Shown piece by piece: positions 13,475-24,215 of a stretch of DNA of 51,880 nt. Location of the stretch: positions 1 to 51,880 of the forward strand of contig JAGLVB010000013.1 in the NCBI GenBank assembly GCA_023134135.1, in the 5' to 3' direction. Numbering within the stretch: position 1 is the stretch's first letter; each line of letters opens with the position of its first letter. The position numbers were made by a program, and so were the translations under genes. The DNA is from Candidatus Aenigmatarchaeota archaeon (lineage in GTDB: Archaea; Aenigmatarchaeota; Aenigmatarchaeia; QMZS01). The notes below the pieces were generated by a model. It was not told the origin of the DNA. It saw nothing but the letters and a program-made list of their open reading frames with translations, and made no database searches.

Positions 13475-13771
13475 ATGGTAAGACCGCAGGATAAAAAGAA
13501 AATAAGTAAGTTATTAAAAATTTTGATTAAACATCCGGAAGGATTGTGGTTGAGGCAAATTTCAAAAGACACTAAAATTGCGCCTTCAACAGTGCATTAT
13601 TATGTAAACCAGACTTTATCTGAAATAATAGAAAATATTGGGGTAAAAGATAAAAAAGGAAAATATTTCGGACTGAGGATTATAAGATTAAAACCAAAAA
13701 TTATAGAAAATGCTGAAAAGGGGGGTTTGGATAATATATTTCATTTTCTCAAATTATCCAAAAAAATATGA
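13475..13771 (+). CDS. Small winged-helix DNA-binding protein
   Basis: 98 aa; KKISKLLKILIKHPEGLWLRQISKDTKIAPSTVHYYVNQTL is HTH-like (LRQISKDTKIAPSTVHYYV). Confidence 0.7.
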   Translation: MVRPQDKKKISKLLKILIKHPEGLWLRQISKDTKIAPSTVHYYVNQTLSEIIENIGVKDKKGKYFGLRIIRLKPKIIENAEKGGLDNIFHFLKLSKKI

Positions 13772-13895
13772 TTTTTAATAGAAAATAATATAAATATGGT
13801 GTGAAGTTCACGTGAACCTAATATTAAAACGTGAACTTAAAAAAGGAGAAATGAATATTATATGAAATTGATAAAAAGATTATAAATTATATTTG

Positions 13896-13911
13896 AAGTT
13901 CACGTGAACTT
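13896..13911. repeat. 16-nt perfect palindrome AAGTTCACGTGAACTT
   Basis: Read directly. Confidence 0.95.
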
Positions 13912-13930
13912 GGGTTTCTTATATTAATTT

Positions 13931-13979
13931 ATGTGAACTTAAATCCTAAATATATTGGTGTTTAAAGCCAAAACAATAA
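13931..13979 (+). repeat. 49-bp direct repeat, copy 1
   Basis: ATGTGAACTTAAATCCTAAATATATTGGTGTTTAAAGCCAAAACAATAA; 4 mismatches to copy at 14476-14524. Confidence 0.9.
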
Positions 13980-14128
13980 TTTTATATAAATTTTAAGTAA
14001 GTTCACGTGAACATCCTCTTAGAGTGTGAACTTGGTGTGAACTTGATAAAGTAAATTAGATGATAATTTGAAGTTTATATGAACAAAAAATATTAATGTG
14101 AATTAAATATAAACTTAATAAATTATAT

Positions 14129-14150
14129 CTCAAGTTCACGTGAACTTGAG
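14129..14150. repeat. 22-nt perfect palindrome CTCAAGTTCACGTGAACTTGAG
   Basis: Read directly; longest version of the array palindrome. Confidence 0.95.
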
Positions 14151-14381
14151 TTGTGTATGTGAACTTAACGTGAACTTAAAAATAGAAATATGAATTTGAA
14201 ATGAAATTCACATGAACAAAGAATACTAACGTGAACTTAAAATAAATATATTGATTTTGCGTGAACCAAACATGAATTTAGTATTTAGTTCACGTGAACT
14301 TGATTCCCGAACGTGAACTTAACGTGAACTAACCAAACCATAAAATCTAAAGTAAAACCATAATTTAACAAACCACCAAAC

Positions 14382-14420
14382 AATTTTTTTATATATTATT
14401 TAAATAACTATATATTTATT
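14382..14420. other. AT-only tract, candidate DNA-unwinding element
   Basis: aattttttt atatattatt taaataacta tatatttatt, a single C in 39 nt, inside the largest gap (154 bp) of the array. Confidence 0.4.
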
Positions 14421-14475
14421 GTACACAATAAAATCCCTGAAGTTCACGTGAACAAAGAATACAAACGTGAACTTA

Positions 14476-14524
14476 ATGTGAACTTAAATCCTAAAAATCT
14501 TGGTGTTTAAAGCCAAAATAAGAA
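14476..14524 (+). repeat. 49-bp direct repeat, copy 2
   Basis: ATGTGAACTTAAATCCTAAAAATCTTGGTGTTTAAAGCCAAAATAAGAA. Confidence 0.9.
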
Positions 14525-14575
14525 GTTCTCCTCAGCAAGATAATATTGTGTGAAGTTCACATGAACTTAAATATT

Positions 14576-15634
14576 ATGGGAGAAATAGAAAATTATAGAA
14601 ATTGGTTGGAAAAACAAGGTCTATCTAAAAATCCTTTCACACTTGAAATTAATCCCTCACTTCTTGTTGGATATGAAAAACAAATAACAAACCTTCTAAA
14701 AAATATAGAACAAAAACAAAAATTAATATTAATCAGCGGCGCAACCGGAAGCGGAAAAACAAGCTTGATTACTTATTTAATTTCCAAAAATAATAAGTTC
14801 ATTTTCCTGAGCAAGCCCCCAAGACAAACATCTCAGTTAATTAATATCTCAGATAAGTTTATTAAAGAATTGCCTTTATTTTCAAGAATATTTATAAAAA
14901 AACCAAAAAAAATTGAAGATGTCCCGCAATTTTTGAACAATATTATAAAAGAACCTAAAGTGCTCTATATAGATGAAATACATGAAGCAAGTATTGAGGT
15001 ATTGGAATGGTTTAGAATAATATCAGATCAGGTTCAAAATCTATCAATAATTTTCTCAGGTCTCCCAATATTTGATGAAATATTGACAAAAAACCTGGAA
15101 ACCCTTAAAAAAAGAATTATTGAAAAAATAGAACTTAATGCTCTGACAAAAGAAGAAACAGAACAATTAATAAGAAAAAGAATTGAATTTGTTGGGGGGA
15201 AGGGTATAAATCCATTCACACCAGAAACTATAGATTATATATATAATAGAACAGGTGGATTTCCAAGGGATATTATAATTCTATGTAATAAATTGTTAAA
15301 TACAACCGCAGAAAATAATACTGAATATATAGATATAAATTTAATAAAAGAAAAACCTGATAAAATTGAAAAAGTAAATGATTTTGGAAAACTCACAAAT
15401 TTATCTGTAAAACAGAAAAAAATAATAGAACTTATCCTTGAACACGAACCAATAGCGCCAAATAAACTTATTGAATTTACAACAGAATATCCCTCAGAAA
15501 AACATGCTTTGAGAGCAGTAAATAATTTATTAAAAAGACTTATATTTGAAGGTTATGTTGAAAGGAAAAAAACCGGAAAAACATATATTTATAATCTTAC
15601 ACCCTCAACACGAACTTTATTAATAAAATCTTAG
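14576..15634 (+). CDS. AAA+ ATPase (ExeA/Cdc6-like STAND/AAA) with C-terminal winged helix
   Basis: Track ORF 14546 starts at TTG; more likely ATG 14576 (MGEIENYRNWLEKQGLSKNPFTLEINPSLLVG). Walker A ISGATGSGKTSLIT, Walker B VLYIDEIHEA, sensor-2-like GGFPRDIIILCNKLL, C-terminal wHTH. Confidence 0.82.
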   Translation: MGEIENYRNWLEKQGLSKNPFTLEINPSLLVGYEKQITNLLKNIEQKQKLILISGATGSGKTSLITYLISKNNKFIFLSKPPRQTSQLINISDKFIKELPLFSRIFIKKPKKIEDVPQFLNNIIKEPKVLYIDEIHEASIEVLEWFRIISDQVQNLSIIFSGLPIFDEILTKNLETLKKRIIEKIELNALTKEETEQLIRKRIEFVGGKGINPFTPETIDYIYNRTGGFPRDIIILCNKLLNTTAENNTEYIDINLIKEKPDKIEKVNDFGKLTNLSVKQKKIIELILEHEPIAPNKLIEFTTEYPSEKHALRAVNNLLKRLIFEGYVERKKTGKTYIYNLTPSTRTLLIKS

Positions 15635-15782
15635 TCCTACCCTTTAGTTTCCTATGGAACTTAAAAATAATTTTTTTGTCGGCAGACACATAAAATCAAA
15701 ATTAAAAAAATAATTTTTTCATATTTTTATTAATTTTTAAAAATATTTATAATAAATGTATTATATAACTATATATTATAGA

Positions 15783-15797
15783 TATTACACAGTAATA
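15783..15797. promoter_or_regulatory. Inverted repeat TATTAC-ACA-GTAATA upstream of cdc6
   Basis: Third copy of the TATTACAYWGTAATA motif. Confidence 0.45.
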
Positions 15798-15885
15798 ATT
15801 ATCAATAAATATAATTATAATAAGTCCAGTGGAAATGAGGGGGTCACGTTACCATACTTAATAATATATTCTCTTGTCGAGAAGT

Positions 15886-15895
15886 CTATATATAG
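15886..15895 (+). promoter_or_regulatory. Putative TATA box for cdc6 (leaderless transcript)
   Basis: CTATATATAG centred about 24 nt before ATG 15915, a spacing typical of archaeal leaderless promoters. Confidence 0.5.
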
Positions 15896-15914
15896 TTCCA
15901 AAGGAAATATAGGT

Positions 15915-17111
15915 ATGCAGGAGAAACTTAGAAATTATTTTTCAGAATATCTGAATAAAGAAAGTTTTTTTATTGACAAAAAATTATTAACTCATAGCTA
16001 TGTGCCAGAAGAGATATTACACCGTGATGAACAAATTTCAACAATCGCAAAAATTCTCGCTCCTTCTTTGAAATTAGAACAACCTTCAAATTTATTTATT
16101 TATGGCACCACAGGAACAGGAAAATCAGTGGCCATAAAATATATATTTAATGAAATGCTCGCGGCGAATACTTCAAATTTTAATGCGATTTATGTTAATT
16201 GTAAATTAAGGAAGGTGTCTGATACAGAATATAGGATGCTGGCATATATCCTAAGAGAACTGAATTTCAAGGTTCCGGACACAGGTCTGCCAACAGAAAC
16301 ATTATATACTAAATTATTTGAATTAGTGGATTCAAAAAAACAGATAATTATTCTGGCTTTGGATGAACTTGATGTTTTAATAAATAAAATAGGTGATGAG
16401 ATTTTATATAACCTGACAAGGATAAATTCAGAATTAGTAAATTCAAAAATAAGTATTATTGGAATTTCAAATGATATTTCATTTACTGATAAATTAGACC
16501 CAAGAGTAAAAAGTTCTTTATCCGAGGAAGAAATTATTTTCCCTCCTTATAATGCCCCCCAATTAAATGATATAATTGAACAAAGGGCAAATAAAGCGCT
16601 TAAACAGGATGTTTATTCTGAAGGTGTTATAAGAAAATGCGCTGCCATAGCCGCTCAGGAGCAGGGAGATGCAAGGAGGGCTTTGGATATGATAAGAGTT
16701 GCTGCGGAAATTGCTGAGAGGAATGATGAAATAAAAATCACTGAAAAACATGTGGGTTTGGCAGAACAAAAACTTGAATTAGACCGCGTTGTGGAATTGG
16801 CAAAAATGCAGCCAAGACATTCACAAGTAACTCTTTATTCAATATTGAAATTATTTGAAAAAAGCGAGGATAATATATTAACAGGAGATGTTTATGAAAT
16901 TTATACTCAATTATGCAAGAGAAATGGGTATAGAATTTTAACACAAAGAAGAATATCTGATTTAATTTCAGAACTTAATATGTTAGGTATAATTTCAACA
17001 AAAGTTATTTCAAAAGGGAGGTATGGGAGGACAAGGGAAATCAGGCTCGCAATTGCAAAAAAACCCTTTGATATTTTAAAAAACCATTTTTCCACATTAT
17101 TTGAAATATGA
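15915..17111 (+). CDS. cdc6: Orc1/Cdc6 replication initiator
   Basis: Track ORF begins 15756, but the first 53 residues look noncoding; MQEKLRNYFSEYLNKESFFIDKKLLTHSYVPEEILHRDEQI then Walker A IYGTTGTGKSVAIKYI, Walker B ILALDELDVL, sensor 2 GDARRALDMIRVAAEIAE. Confidence 0.95.
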   Translation: MQEKLRNYFSEYLNKESFFIDKKLLTHSYVPEEILHRDEQISTIAKILAPSLKLEQPSNLFIYGTTGTGKSVAIKYIFNEMLAANTSNFNAIYVNCKLRKVSDTEYRMLAYILRELNFKVPDTGLPTETLYTKLFELVDSKKQIIILALDELDVLINKIGDEILYNLTRINSELVNSKISIIGISNDISFTDKLDPRVKSSLSEEEIIFPPYNAPQLNDIIEQRANKALKQDVYSEGVIRKCAAIAAQEQGDARRALDMIRVAAEIAERNDEIKITEKHVGLAEQKLELDRVVELAKMQPRHSQVTLYSILKLFEKSEDNILTGDVYEIYTQLCKRNGYRILTQRRISDLISELNMLGIISTKVISKGRYGRTREIRLAIAKKPFDILKNHFSTLFEI

Positions 17112-17713
17112 TATTAACATATGAAAAAATCCGGGAATTAAAACAACTTGAAAAACAAGATAAATTACAGGATTTACCTGAAAATTTTTCAATAGCTGTT
17201 GCTGAATACATTAATTTGAAGAAAGGGTCAGACGAAGAGGTTTCAGCAAAGAGTTTAATTAAGAGTTTGTATGATTTAAGAAAGAAGAAAATTATTAATT
17301 TAGCGGGATTATTTTACAAAACAGATAAAATTCCAGAAAATATAGAGGGTATGGAGGAAGAATTATATTTAAATACAGTAGAAATAATGAGAAAATATAA
17401 CATTTCTTTTGAAGGATTATTTAATAAACAATCTGAAACCGAAAGAACAGAATCAAAAAATAATAAACAATATTCTCAGAGCACAAAAACTAAAAATATG
17501 TTTAATTCTCTACAAATTAAAGAAGATACCGCAAACAAACCTTATGATAATAATTCACAAGAAAATAAATTAAAGGTTGTATTTTTATCAGATATACCTG
17601 AAATCATAACCCCTACAGGGGAAATATGTTCTTTCAAAAAAGAAGAAGAAAAGGAACTTAACACCGAATTTGCAATACAGCTTAAAGAACAGGGGTTTTG
17701 TAGATTTAAATAA
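17108..17713 (+). CDS. Archaeal GINS subunit (Gins51/Gins15-like)
   Basis: N-terminal LPENFSIAVAEYI, LRKKKIINLAGL; C-terminal B-domain VVFLSDIPEIITPTGEICSFKKEEEKELNTEFAIQLKEQGF. ATG overlaps the cdc6 stop. Confidence 0.8.
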   Translation: MILTYEKIRELKQLEKQDKLQDLPENFSIAVAEYINLKKGSDEEVSAKSLIKSLYDLRKKKIINLAGLFYKTDKIPENIEGMEEELYLNTVEIMRKYNISFEGLFNKQSETERTESKNNKQYSQSTKTKNMFNSLQIKEDTANKPYDNNSQENKLKVVFLSDIPEIITPTGEICSFKKEEEKELNTEFAIQLKEQGFCRFK

Positions 17714-21883: not shown

Positions 21884-23023
21884 ATGGAAGCAGAAAGGAT
21901 GAATAGGGGTGTTAATATTGTGGATTTGGAGAAAGATATTTCAAATACAAAGCAGGTTCTTGAACTTATGAAAGCCCAGATAGCAATGCTTGGGGAGCAG
22001 ATACCTGTAATAGAAACCGAAGAGCAGAAACCAGAGGAATTTCCGGATTATAATGAAAAAAAAGTTCTTGTAACTGGAGGAGCCGGAGCAATAGGCACAA
22101 ATCTTTCAAAGAGATTAGCAGAACTCGGGGCAAAGGTGACAATTCTTGACAATCTTTCTTCAGCTTATGAATGGAATATCCCGGTTCACAAAAACATAAA
22201 ATTTGTAAAAGGAGATATTCTTAATGATGAGGATTTGAAAAGAGTTTTCAAGGAAAAGCCCGATTACATTTTCCACTTAACCGCGCATTTTGCAAACCAA
22301 AATTCTGTGGACAGCCCGGAAACTGATTTGATGATAAACGGGATTGGAATTCTGAAAGTATTGCAGTACGCCAATCTAGTAAAAGTAAAAAGATTTGTTT
22401 ATTCTTCTTCAGGTTGCGGGGTTTATGGACTTGATTCAAAAATGCCTTTTGAGGAACATGACATTTCTATAAAATTGCACACACCTTATCAGGTAACAAA
22501 ATTACTCGGTGAGTTGTACACAAATTATTTTTATAATTTATATAATCTCCCAATTGTGAACGCAAGATTTTCTAATGTTTTTGGTCCGGGGGAAGTTCCG
22601 GGAAAATACAGAAATGCAATTCCAAATTTCTTTTACTGGGCGCTGAACGGGAAATCAATTCCAATAACAGGAACAGGAGAAGAGACAAGAGACTGGACTT
22701 ATGTGGGAGATATTGTTAATGGATTGCTTGCGATGGGTCTTGAAGAAAAAGCAATAGGCGAATCAATCAATCTTGGTTCCGGGAAAGAATATAAAATAAT
22801 AGATGTGGCAACGGAAGTGAATAGATTAACCGGAAATAATACTGGGATGAAACAGGTGAGGGGAAGGGACTGGGATGTTAAAAAAAGACTTTGTTCTTCA
22901 GTTGAAAAGGCAAGGAGAATTTTAGGTTATGAACCAAAAACCGCATTCGAAGAAGGTCTCGGAAAGGTTTATAAATGGTTTGTGGAAAATAAATATAATA
23001 TAAATAAATCAGTTGAATTCTAA
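21884..23023 (+). CDS. NAD-dependent epimerase/dehydratase with ~60 aa N-terminal extension
   Basis: VLVTGGAGAIGTNLSKRLAELGAKV; YSSSGCGVYG; YQVTK; the N-terminal extension MEAERMNRGVNIVDLEKDISNTKQVLELMKAQIAMLGEQI is predicted helical. Confidence 0.88.
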   Translation: MEAERMNRGVNIVDLEKDISNTKQVLELMKAQIAMLGEQIPVIETEEQKPEEFPDYNEKKVLVTGGAGAIGTNLSKRLAELGAKVTILDNLSSAYEWNIPVHKNIKFVKGDILNDEDLKRVFKEKPDYIFHLTAHFANQNSVDSPETDLMINGIGILKVLQYANLVKVKRFVYSSSGCGVYGLDSKMPFEEHDISIKLHTPYQVTKLLGELYTNYFYNLYNLPIVNARFSNVFGPGEVPGKYRNAIPNFFYWALNGKSIPITGTGEETRDWTYVGDIVNGLLAMGLEEKAIGESINLGSGKEYKIIDVATEVNRLTGNNTGMKQVRGRDWDVKKRLCSSVEKARRILGYEPKTAFEEGLGKVYKWFVENKYNINKSVEF

Positions 23024-24215
23024 TATGAATATTTTGGTTGTTCAGGAATCAGATTGGATTGAGAAAGGACCGCACACAACTCATCATTTATTTGAGAGAT
23101 TATCAAAAAAAGGTCACAGAATAAATGTGATCGATTTTGAAATTTCATGGAGAAATCACAAAAAAGAAATAAGCTCCAAAAGAAAAGTTTTTAAAAACCA
23201 ACATAAAGCGATAAAAGAGGGGAACATTACAGTCATAAGACCCCCAATTATAAAACTACCTATTTTAGAATATCTCTCTTTGTTATATACACATAGAAAA
23301 GAAATAAAGAGACAAATAGCAGACTTTCATCCGGATGTGATTATTGGTTTCGGGATTCTTAATGCCAATATTGCGGGTAAGTTAGCAAAAAAGAAAAATA
23401 TTCCTTTTGTATATTATCTGATGGATTCTTTGAATGAGTTGGTGCCCCAAAAGATATTTAAACCCATTGCAAGAATAATTGAGAGTAAAAATATGAAACT
23501 TGCGGATAAGGTAATCTCTTTGAATGAATGTCTTAGAGAGTATACAATAAAACTGGGCGCAGATATAAAAAAGACCGAGGTAATCAGGTCAGGTATTGAT
23601 TTAAGCAGATATAATCCAAAAATTAAAGGGGATGAAATAAGAGAAAAATATGGGATTAAAGATTATGAACTGGTTTTATTTTTCATGGGCTGGCTCTATG
23701 ATTTTTCTGGTTTGAAGGAAGTTGCTGTTGAATTGTTAAAATATAAAAATATAAAAATTTTAATTGTTGGTGAAGGCGATGCTTATAAACACCTAAAAAA
23801 AATAAGTAAAGAAGCGGGAGATAGGATAATTCTTACAGGGAAACAACCCTATGAAAAAATCCCAGAATTTATATCTGCTTCAGATGTTTGTTTGCTTCCC
23901 GCCCATAACAATAAAATTATGCGGGATATAGTTCCTATAAAAATGTATGAATATATGGCCATGGAAAAACCAGTTATTTCAACAAAGTTGCCTGGAGTTA
24001 TATTGGAATTTGAAGAAAATAATGGAGTTTTATATGTAGATAAACCAGAAGATGTTGTTGAGAAAGCCCTGAAATTGGATAAAAAACACACAATCAAAAT
24101 AGAAGGAAAGAAAGCAAGAAAATTTGTTGAAAGAATGGACTGGAGTTTATTGGTGGATAAATTTGAAGAGTCTATTCTTGAGGGTGTGAATAAAAAATCA
24201 ATCCAAATCAGATAA
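23013..24215 (+). CDS. Glycosyltransferase family 4
   Basis: GT-B fold, VIRSGIDLSRYNP, PIKMYEYMAMEKPVISTKLPG. Confidence 0.88.
   Translation: MNSNMNILVVQESDWIEKGPHTTHHLFERLSKKGHRINVIDFEISWRNHKKEISSKRKVFKNQHKAIKEGNITVIRPPIIKLPILEYLSLLYTHRKEIKRQIADFHPDVIIGFGILNANIAGKLAKKKNIPFVYYLMDSLNELVPQKIFKPIARIIESKNMKLADKVISLNECLREYTIKLGADIKKTEVIRSGIDLSRYNPKIKGDEIREKYGIKDYELVLFFMGWLYDFSGLKEVAVELLKYKNIKILIVGEGDAYKHLKKISKEAGDRIILTGKQPYEKIPEFISASDVCLLPAHNNKIMRDIVPIKMYEYMAMEKPVISTKLPGVILEFEENNGVLYVDKPEDVVEKALKLDKKHTIKIEGKKARKFVERMDWSLLVDKFEESILEGVNKKSIQIR

Follow-up and report, generated by a model that had tools for sequence, protein, structure and literature searches.

A helically phased half-site array linked to an AAA+ winged-helix ATPase gene in a replication gene neighbourhood of Aenigmatarchaeota

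The window, by which we mean the whole stretch of 51,880 nucleotides analysed here, comes from the 985-kb draft genome of a Candidatus Aenigmatarchaeota archaeon (GenBank assembly GCA_023134135.1, contig JAGLVB010000013.1). It carries an array of half-sites and palindromes between the gene for a small winged-helix protein, wHTH98, and that for an AAA+ ATPase, AAA352, which is followed by orc1 and a gene for a GINS subunit-like protein (Table 1). The reading frame of orc1 opens at 15756, which is 53 codons early, as its homologues begin near ATG 15915, and the ORB at 15825 lies inside the 15756-15914 segment.

Table 1. Features of the locus within the window (numbers with a plus sign are spacings in bp)
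Feature	Coordinates	Strand	Basis
wHTH98, small winged-helix protein (HTH_IclR-like), usual array neighbour	13475..13771	+	profile search, family comparison
Half-site/palindrome array (NGTGAAC + GTTCACGTGAAC), helically phased ladder	13801..14566	+	sequence reading, genome-wide motif scan
Unit 1: palindrome 13806-13817, then half-site 13830 (+19)	13806..13836	+	motif scan
Unit 2: palindrome 13898-13909, then half-site 13932 (+29; without +19 site)	13898..13938	+	motif scan
Unit 3: palindrome, then 14025 (+19), 14036 (+11)	14001..14042	+	motif and composite scan
Unit 4, degenerate: 14078/14097/14108, both spacings retained	14073..14114	+	direct reading
Unit 5: palindrome, then 14158 (+19), 14169 (+11)	14134..14175	+	motif and composite scan
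Unit 6: ATTCACATGAAC, then 14230 (+19), 14260 (+30 from 14230), degenerate 14271 (+11)	14206..14277	+	direct reading, motif scan
Unit 7: palindrome, then 14312 (+19), 14323 (+11)	14288..14329	+	motif and composite scan
Unit 8: palindrome, then 14466 (+19), 14477 (+11)	14442..14483	+	motif and composite scan
Terminal palindrome GTTCACATGAAC, end 9 bp ahead of AAA352 start codon	14555..14566	+	direct reading, motif scan
AAA352, AAA+ ATPase (AAA_22; ExeA/TniB/TnsC/ORC-like) with C-terminal BlaI/MecI-like winged helix, putative array binder	14576..15634	+	profiles, AF2, Foldseek
Archaeal ORB, canonical, TCCAGTGGAAATGAGGGGGT, ahead of orc1, separate from array	15825..15844	+	pattern scan against PMC4164010 consensus
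Orc1/Cdc6; ORF opens 15756, likely start ATG 15915	15915..17111	+	profiles, homologue starts
GINS subunit-like protein	17108..17713	+	profile search

We first describe the sites themselves. Between 13772 and 14575, the plus strand contains GTGAAC 18 times, whereas 2000 dinucleotide shuffles gave 0.35 copies on average and never more than 4. When 18 sites were placed at random in 20,000 trials, P was below 5e-5 for both 19- and 30-bp pairs, and it was 0.0006 for 11-bp pairs. All six exact genome-wide copies of GTTCACGTGAAC lie within one 650-bp stretch of the array. The original prediction had described units in which a palindrome is followed by a same-direction half-site 19 bp later and, in some units, by another 11 bp further on. 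Indeed, we recovered all seven 19-bp pairs (13811>13830, 14006>14025, 14078>14097, 14139>14158, 14211>14230, 14293>14312 and 14447>14466) and all five 11-bp followers (14036, 14108, 14169, 14323 and 14477), including both spacings of the degenerate unit at 14078/14097/14108, which reads TATGAAC/TGTGAAT/TATAAAC. Sites absent from that earlier list are the unit at 13903 (+29), the series 14230>14260>14271 (+30, +11), the site at 14555, and extra half-sites located 11 bp 5' of some palindromes, such as that at 13801. The claim that the spacing was kept despite decay of the sequence also held, since the inter-unit spacers are only 26-57% identical in DNA of about 75% AT, and are mostly no recent copies of one another, while the spacing is the same. 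The spacing has thus outlived the sequence, with the exception of one recent duplicate of 55 nt (TTTAAATCCTAAATATATTGGTGTTTAAAGCC-like), in which 13928-13982 equals 14473-14527 at 89% and whose copies lie at the ends of two array units.

A scan of 150 genomes with the composite motif, allowing up to two mismatches, returned 22 places, whereas the reversed control returned none. Nineteen of the matches lie directly upstream of AAA352, two lie beside wHTH98 at a contig end (G004), and one lies elsewhere (G027:C3). The composite spacing is real, far above chance and locus-specific, but the 19+11 arrangement turned out to be a local form and not the general rule. As for other identities of the array, a structured RNA was rejected, as Rfam gave no match, and so was a defence system, for which PADLOC gave weak P-loop-type matches only. 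A lone half-site pair with 11-bp spacing (GTGAAGTTCATGTGAAC) lies outside the array at G000:C27:73196-73212, and is possibly a further target.

The general rule emerged when the half-site definition derived from the window was applied to the other families, for which f1, f2 and so on are working labels. In the first 70 regions pooled, same-direction GTGAA[C/G] sites lie 11, 21-22, 31-32, 42, 52, 62-63 and 73 bp apart, with almost none between these values. The resultant at 10.5 bp was 0.72, compared with a mean of 0.036 and a maximum of 0.105 in 500 jittered sets, and it was still 0.71 without the window's family. Tested family by family, the phasing reached P <= 0.001 (1000 jittered sets) in f1, f2, f5, f8, f9, f11, f12, f13, f16, f18, f21, f22 and f23, and it was undetectable by this test in f3, f4, f6, f10, f14 and f15, among them several families with few sites. 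The jitter test preserves site density and not phylogeny, and the families share history, yet independent families agree. The sample consists mostly of draft genomes, whose assemblies frequently break inside the array, and a genome-wide ladder count in G031 at strict tolerance gave zero and missed even the small local array, so that it was set aside as evidence. As a general rule, the distance between same-direction half-sites is a multiple of 10.5 bp, and the sites share one face of the helix. Since G003 and G008, two genomes from the same genus as the window, have spacings of 9/11/20/31 and the 10.5-bp phase is class-wide, the 19+11 unit of the window is a lineage-specific form of this same-face ladder. 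In addition, the fixed direction that had been ascribed to the units did not hold, as those of f5, f16, G046 and most of f11 mainly point the opposite way. The number of half-sites per array ranges from more than 30 (f22) to almost none (f4 and f10), with weak arrays in f3, and AAA352 is retained throughout.

We then asked which gene the array accompanies. The array, AAA352 and orc1 lie side by side in the window's family, which is why the original prediction tied the array to cdc6. That assignment was not borne out, since the array stays with AAA352 where orc1 lies elsewhere, and Orc1 has its own ORB with a G-string. In five genomes (G009, G024, G046, G064 and G018), the array accompanies AAA352 while orc1 is on a separate contig or undetected. 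The exact palindrome 12-mer was found in 24 genomes; in 21 of them, all but G073, G163 and G185, it precedes AAA352 or, at a contig end, adjoins wHTH98. Furthermore, 49 of 70 genomes have at least two copies of TTCACGTGAA (up to one mismatch) ahead of AAA352, where about 0.06 are expected per region, and the same motif is mostly absent upstream of orc1. As the linkage persists with orc1 elsewhere and Orc1 owns a separate ORB, the array is that of the AAA352 gene and not of cdc6. In G018, which is 94% complete, array and AAA352 are present and Cdc6_C/Orc1 is undetectable; the f19 genomes are without AAA352 and have distant Orc1 relatives only.

The separate ORB was identified with the published common motif TCCA[CG]T[TG]GAAA[TC][GA]AAGGGGT (PMC4164010), to which TCCAGTGGAAATGAGGGGGT of the window conforms. 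In contrast, the array fails the ORB consensus with G-string (TCCA[CG]T[TG]GAAA..AAGGGGT). Of 30 genomes, 22 have ORBs with the G-string ahead of orc1, the window's among them, whereas a loose ORB pattern was found nine times in 67 kb upstream of AAA352. The ORB core is CAGTGG or similar in the window's family, as against CACGTG in the array. In f3, f13 and f14, the ORB core is CACRTGAA with a G-string and resembles the array motif; the sites of Orc1 and AAA352 may have a common origin or be in competition.

The surroundings of AAA352 and orc1 form a conserved neighbourhood of replication genes. Where the two genes share a contig outside the window's family, they are divergent in 32 of 34 genomes, with a median of 15.5 kb between them. 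The array adjoins orc1 in the window's family only, in which the ancestral AAA352-orc1 arrangement has collapsed and the genes are now adjacent. The ten loci compared contain, between or around the two genes, a PolD-small-subunit-like exonuclease (assigned by reading, with an OB fold below cut-off as its Pfam match), Hjc, a DnaG-like Toprim protein, a LigT-like phosphoesterase, RadA and an RPA-like protein. Cumulative GC skew reaches a local minimum near 13 kb in the window. GC skew was nevertheless discarded as proof of an origin here, as G051 has no skew extremum at its array, and the extremes of GC and other disparity curves lie away from the array in the single-contig chromosome of G031.

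We next examined the AAA352 protein. It matched AAA_22 (PF13401) above the cut-off (E 6e-13) and TIGR03015 (ExeA-like) with 91 bits, below the cut-off of 324.5; it also matched phage DNA transposition proteins, and every equivalog cut-off failed. Its C-terminal 80 residues match winged helices of the MecI/BlaI type (penicillinase repressor). The profile search gave no match to Cdc6_C (PF09079), and the similarity to Orc1 in hhalign is restricted to part of the AAA domain. A confident AF2 model (mean pLDDT 85.6) and Foldseek show an AAA+/lid/C-terminal winged-helix fold, for which the best PDB matches are ORC/Cdc6 (TM about 0.5, including the origin-DNA complexes 2qby and 2v1u), and TnsC is also matched. 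By prediction, AAA352 is therefore an ATPase of the ORC/TnsC clade with a winged helix, and is not assigned as Orc1. The recognition helix of the winged helix is conserved at 2.99 bits, compared with 3.03 for Walker A and a mean of 2.39. The closest sequence families of the core are those of the ExeA/TniB/TnsC (AAA_22) ATPases (AAA_22, TIGR03015 and phage transposition protein), from which AAA352 differs in its C-terminal winged helix and as a single-copy core gene, present in about 111 of about 155 genomes of the class. No transposase was seen among its neighbours, which offer replication and repair genes instead of a transposition or secretion context. A further archaeal phylum likewise carries AAA352 as a single-copy gene (27 of 34 genomes), preceded by parS-like sites at lower density; in its member G167 the gene and orc1, about 10 kb apart, are once more divergent.

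Starting from the array, its helical phasing, the class-wide linkage to AAA352, the separate Orc1 ORB and the replication gene context, all of which are directly supported, we propose that the array is a cooperative binding platform of AAA352 for origin-proximal control of replication or segregation, a reading to which we give an even chance. The winged helix of every AAA352 subunit would read a single NGTGAA[C/G] half-site, and AAA+-AAA+ contacts would join subunits bound at distances of one to three helical turns along a single face of the DNA, to yield a nucleoprotein oligomer under ATP control, of the ORC/DnaA/TnsC type. Set within the ancestral replication neighbourhood, such an oligomer would most likely be an origin-proximal element controlling replication or segregation, and AAA352 and its array would form a second replicator-initiator-like pair alongside Orc1 and ORB. 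The complex is probably a repressor of its own gene as well. No partner of the array is as constant as AAA352, but f4 and f10 have no array and that of f3 is weak, and we thus infer the binding; AAA352 remains putative as binder, as oligomer and in its function. Several observations count against this proposal. The variation of array size while AAA352 is kept would be unexpected of an origin or centromere that is essential, most arrays have wHTH98 alongside as well, the disparity curves of G031 and G051 are unsupportive, and an array abutting the AAA352 start codon in the window is also compatible with plain autoregulation. Judged from sequence, a cooperative, ATP-controlled nucleoprotein platform near replication genes would still be the best-supported function, and it may serve origin control, segregation or autoregulation alone. 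The wider proposal, that Aenigmatarchaeota and another archaeal phylum possess a core chromosomal system in which AAA352 on a parS-like ladder controls origin firing or segregation independently of Orc1, we advance more tentatively, as somewhat short of an even chance.

Autoregulation on its own would make AAA352 a transcription regulator and the sites its feedback operator. The array indeed terminates at the AAA352 start codon, and the lone 11-bp pair at G000:C27:73196 could be another target. A precedent is the Sulfolobus Orc1-2 protein, an Orc1 relative that regulates DNA damage genes (PMC9738581): it is likewise an Orc-like AAA+ winged-helix protein, is not an initiator, and binds a motif in its own promoter. 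AAA352, in contrast, is no Orc1 relative by domain profile and has no scattered regulon, since every exact palindrome of the genome lies at a single locus. Moreover, 800 bp with more than 20 half-sites (more than 30 in f22) is far beyond what an operator needs, and the gene is located in a replication cluster. We consider this explanation unlikely, though one to be reckoned with.

The array might instead be a centromere, on which AAA352 and/or wHTH98 would form a partition complex like ParR-parC, TubR-tubC or ParB-parS near oriC. The palindromic core TTCACGTGAA has the same sequence as the middle of bacterial parS, TGTTNCACGTGAAACA (PMC7022226), and in ParB-parS systems, too, clustered sites lie near a replication initiator gene. 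However, parS is a 16-bp site outside any helical ladder, the flanks of GTTCACGTGAAC are unlike those of parS, and ParB (TIGR00180) is absent from the window's genome and genus, being above cut-off in 3 of 115 genomes. Bacterial ParB-parS was thus rejected as the identity of the array, and with no ParB in genome or genus, any likeness to parS is convergent. The parC and tubC centromeres (PMC5016525), and iterons, are closer in layout, having short direct repeats of about one helical turn and a winged-helix neighbour, and the repeats of the array are in helical phase as in parC and tubC; its single locus near orc1 would also suit a centromere. The array differs in being chromosomal and in mixing palindromes with half-sites, the family matches of AAA352 are of the ORC/TnsC class and not ParA-, actin- or tubulin-like, and the f5 arrays persist without wHTH98. 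A centromere is accordingly quite unlikely in our judgement.

Binding by Orc1, with the array as mini-ORBs lacking the G-string, would make the locus an Orc1/Cdc6 origin. Archaeal ORB and Orc1-Cdc6 pairs resemble it in having repeated sites beside the gene of an AAA+ protein with a C-terminal winged helix in a replication context. The window has array, ORB, orc1 and GINS together as well as the local skew minimum, and the ORB core of f3, f13 and f14 is likewise CACRTGAA. The array, however, consists of tandem half-sites in 10.5-bp phase without TCCA..GAAA..GGGGT, and the gene adjoining it encodes no Cdc6_C domain. Orc1 was dropped as first choice for the owner, because the arrays track AAA352 rather than orc1 and Orc1 has its own G-string ORBs, with a different core in the window. 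This leaves an Orc1-bound array very unlikely.

A similarly small probability attaches to wHTH98 as the binder, with AAA352 merely its neighbour or effector. The gene of wHTH98 adjoins the array in most array-bearing families, and in f4 and f10, where AAA352 is kept, a recognisable array and an adjacent wHTH98 are both missing. On the other hand, none of the five f5 genomes, whose ladders are strong (resultant 0.89), yielded wHTH98, which makes it improbable as the sole binder, and in G034 and G059 the arrays are strong with wHTH98 8-9 kb away. Finally, neutral tandem repeats grown by slippage or duplication, suggested by the recent duplicates among the copies (13928/14473), are almost certainly not the explanation, as the spacing was held while the spacers diverged, and motif and helical phase recur in most families tested.

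How tiny, host-dependent archaea start replication and inherit their chromosome is little known, and we found no study of it in the literature searched. The locus offers a conserved, putative protein-DNA pair beside replication genes, whose strict geometry predicts how the protein would be placed on the DNA, and an array on one face of the helix points to an undescribed protein-DNA machine in chromosome replication or inheritance. If the AAA352 platform is real, archaea would possess a second AAA+ platform next to Orc1, and the parS core would be used convergently outside ParB. Further along the window, sugar-nucleotide epimerase/dehydratase-like and glycosyltransferase genes at 21884-24215 probably form a surface polysaccharide cluster.
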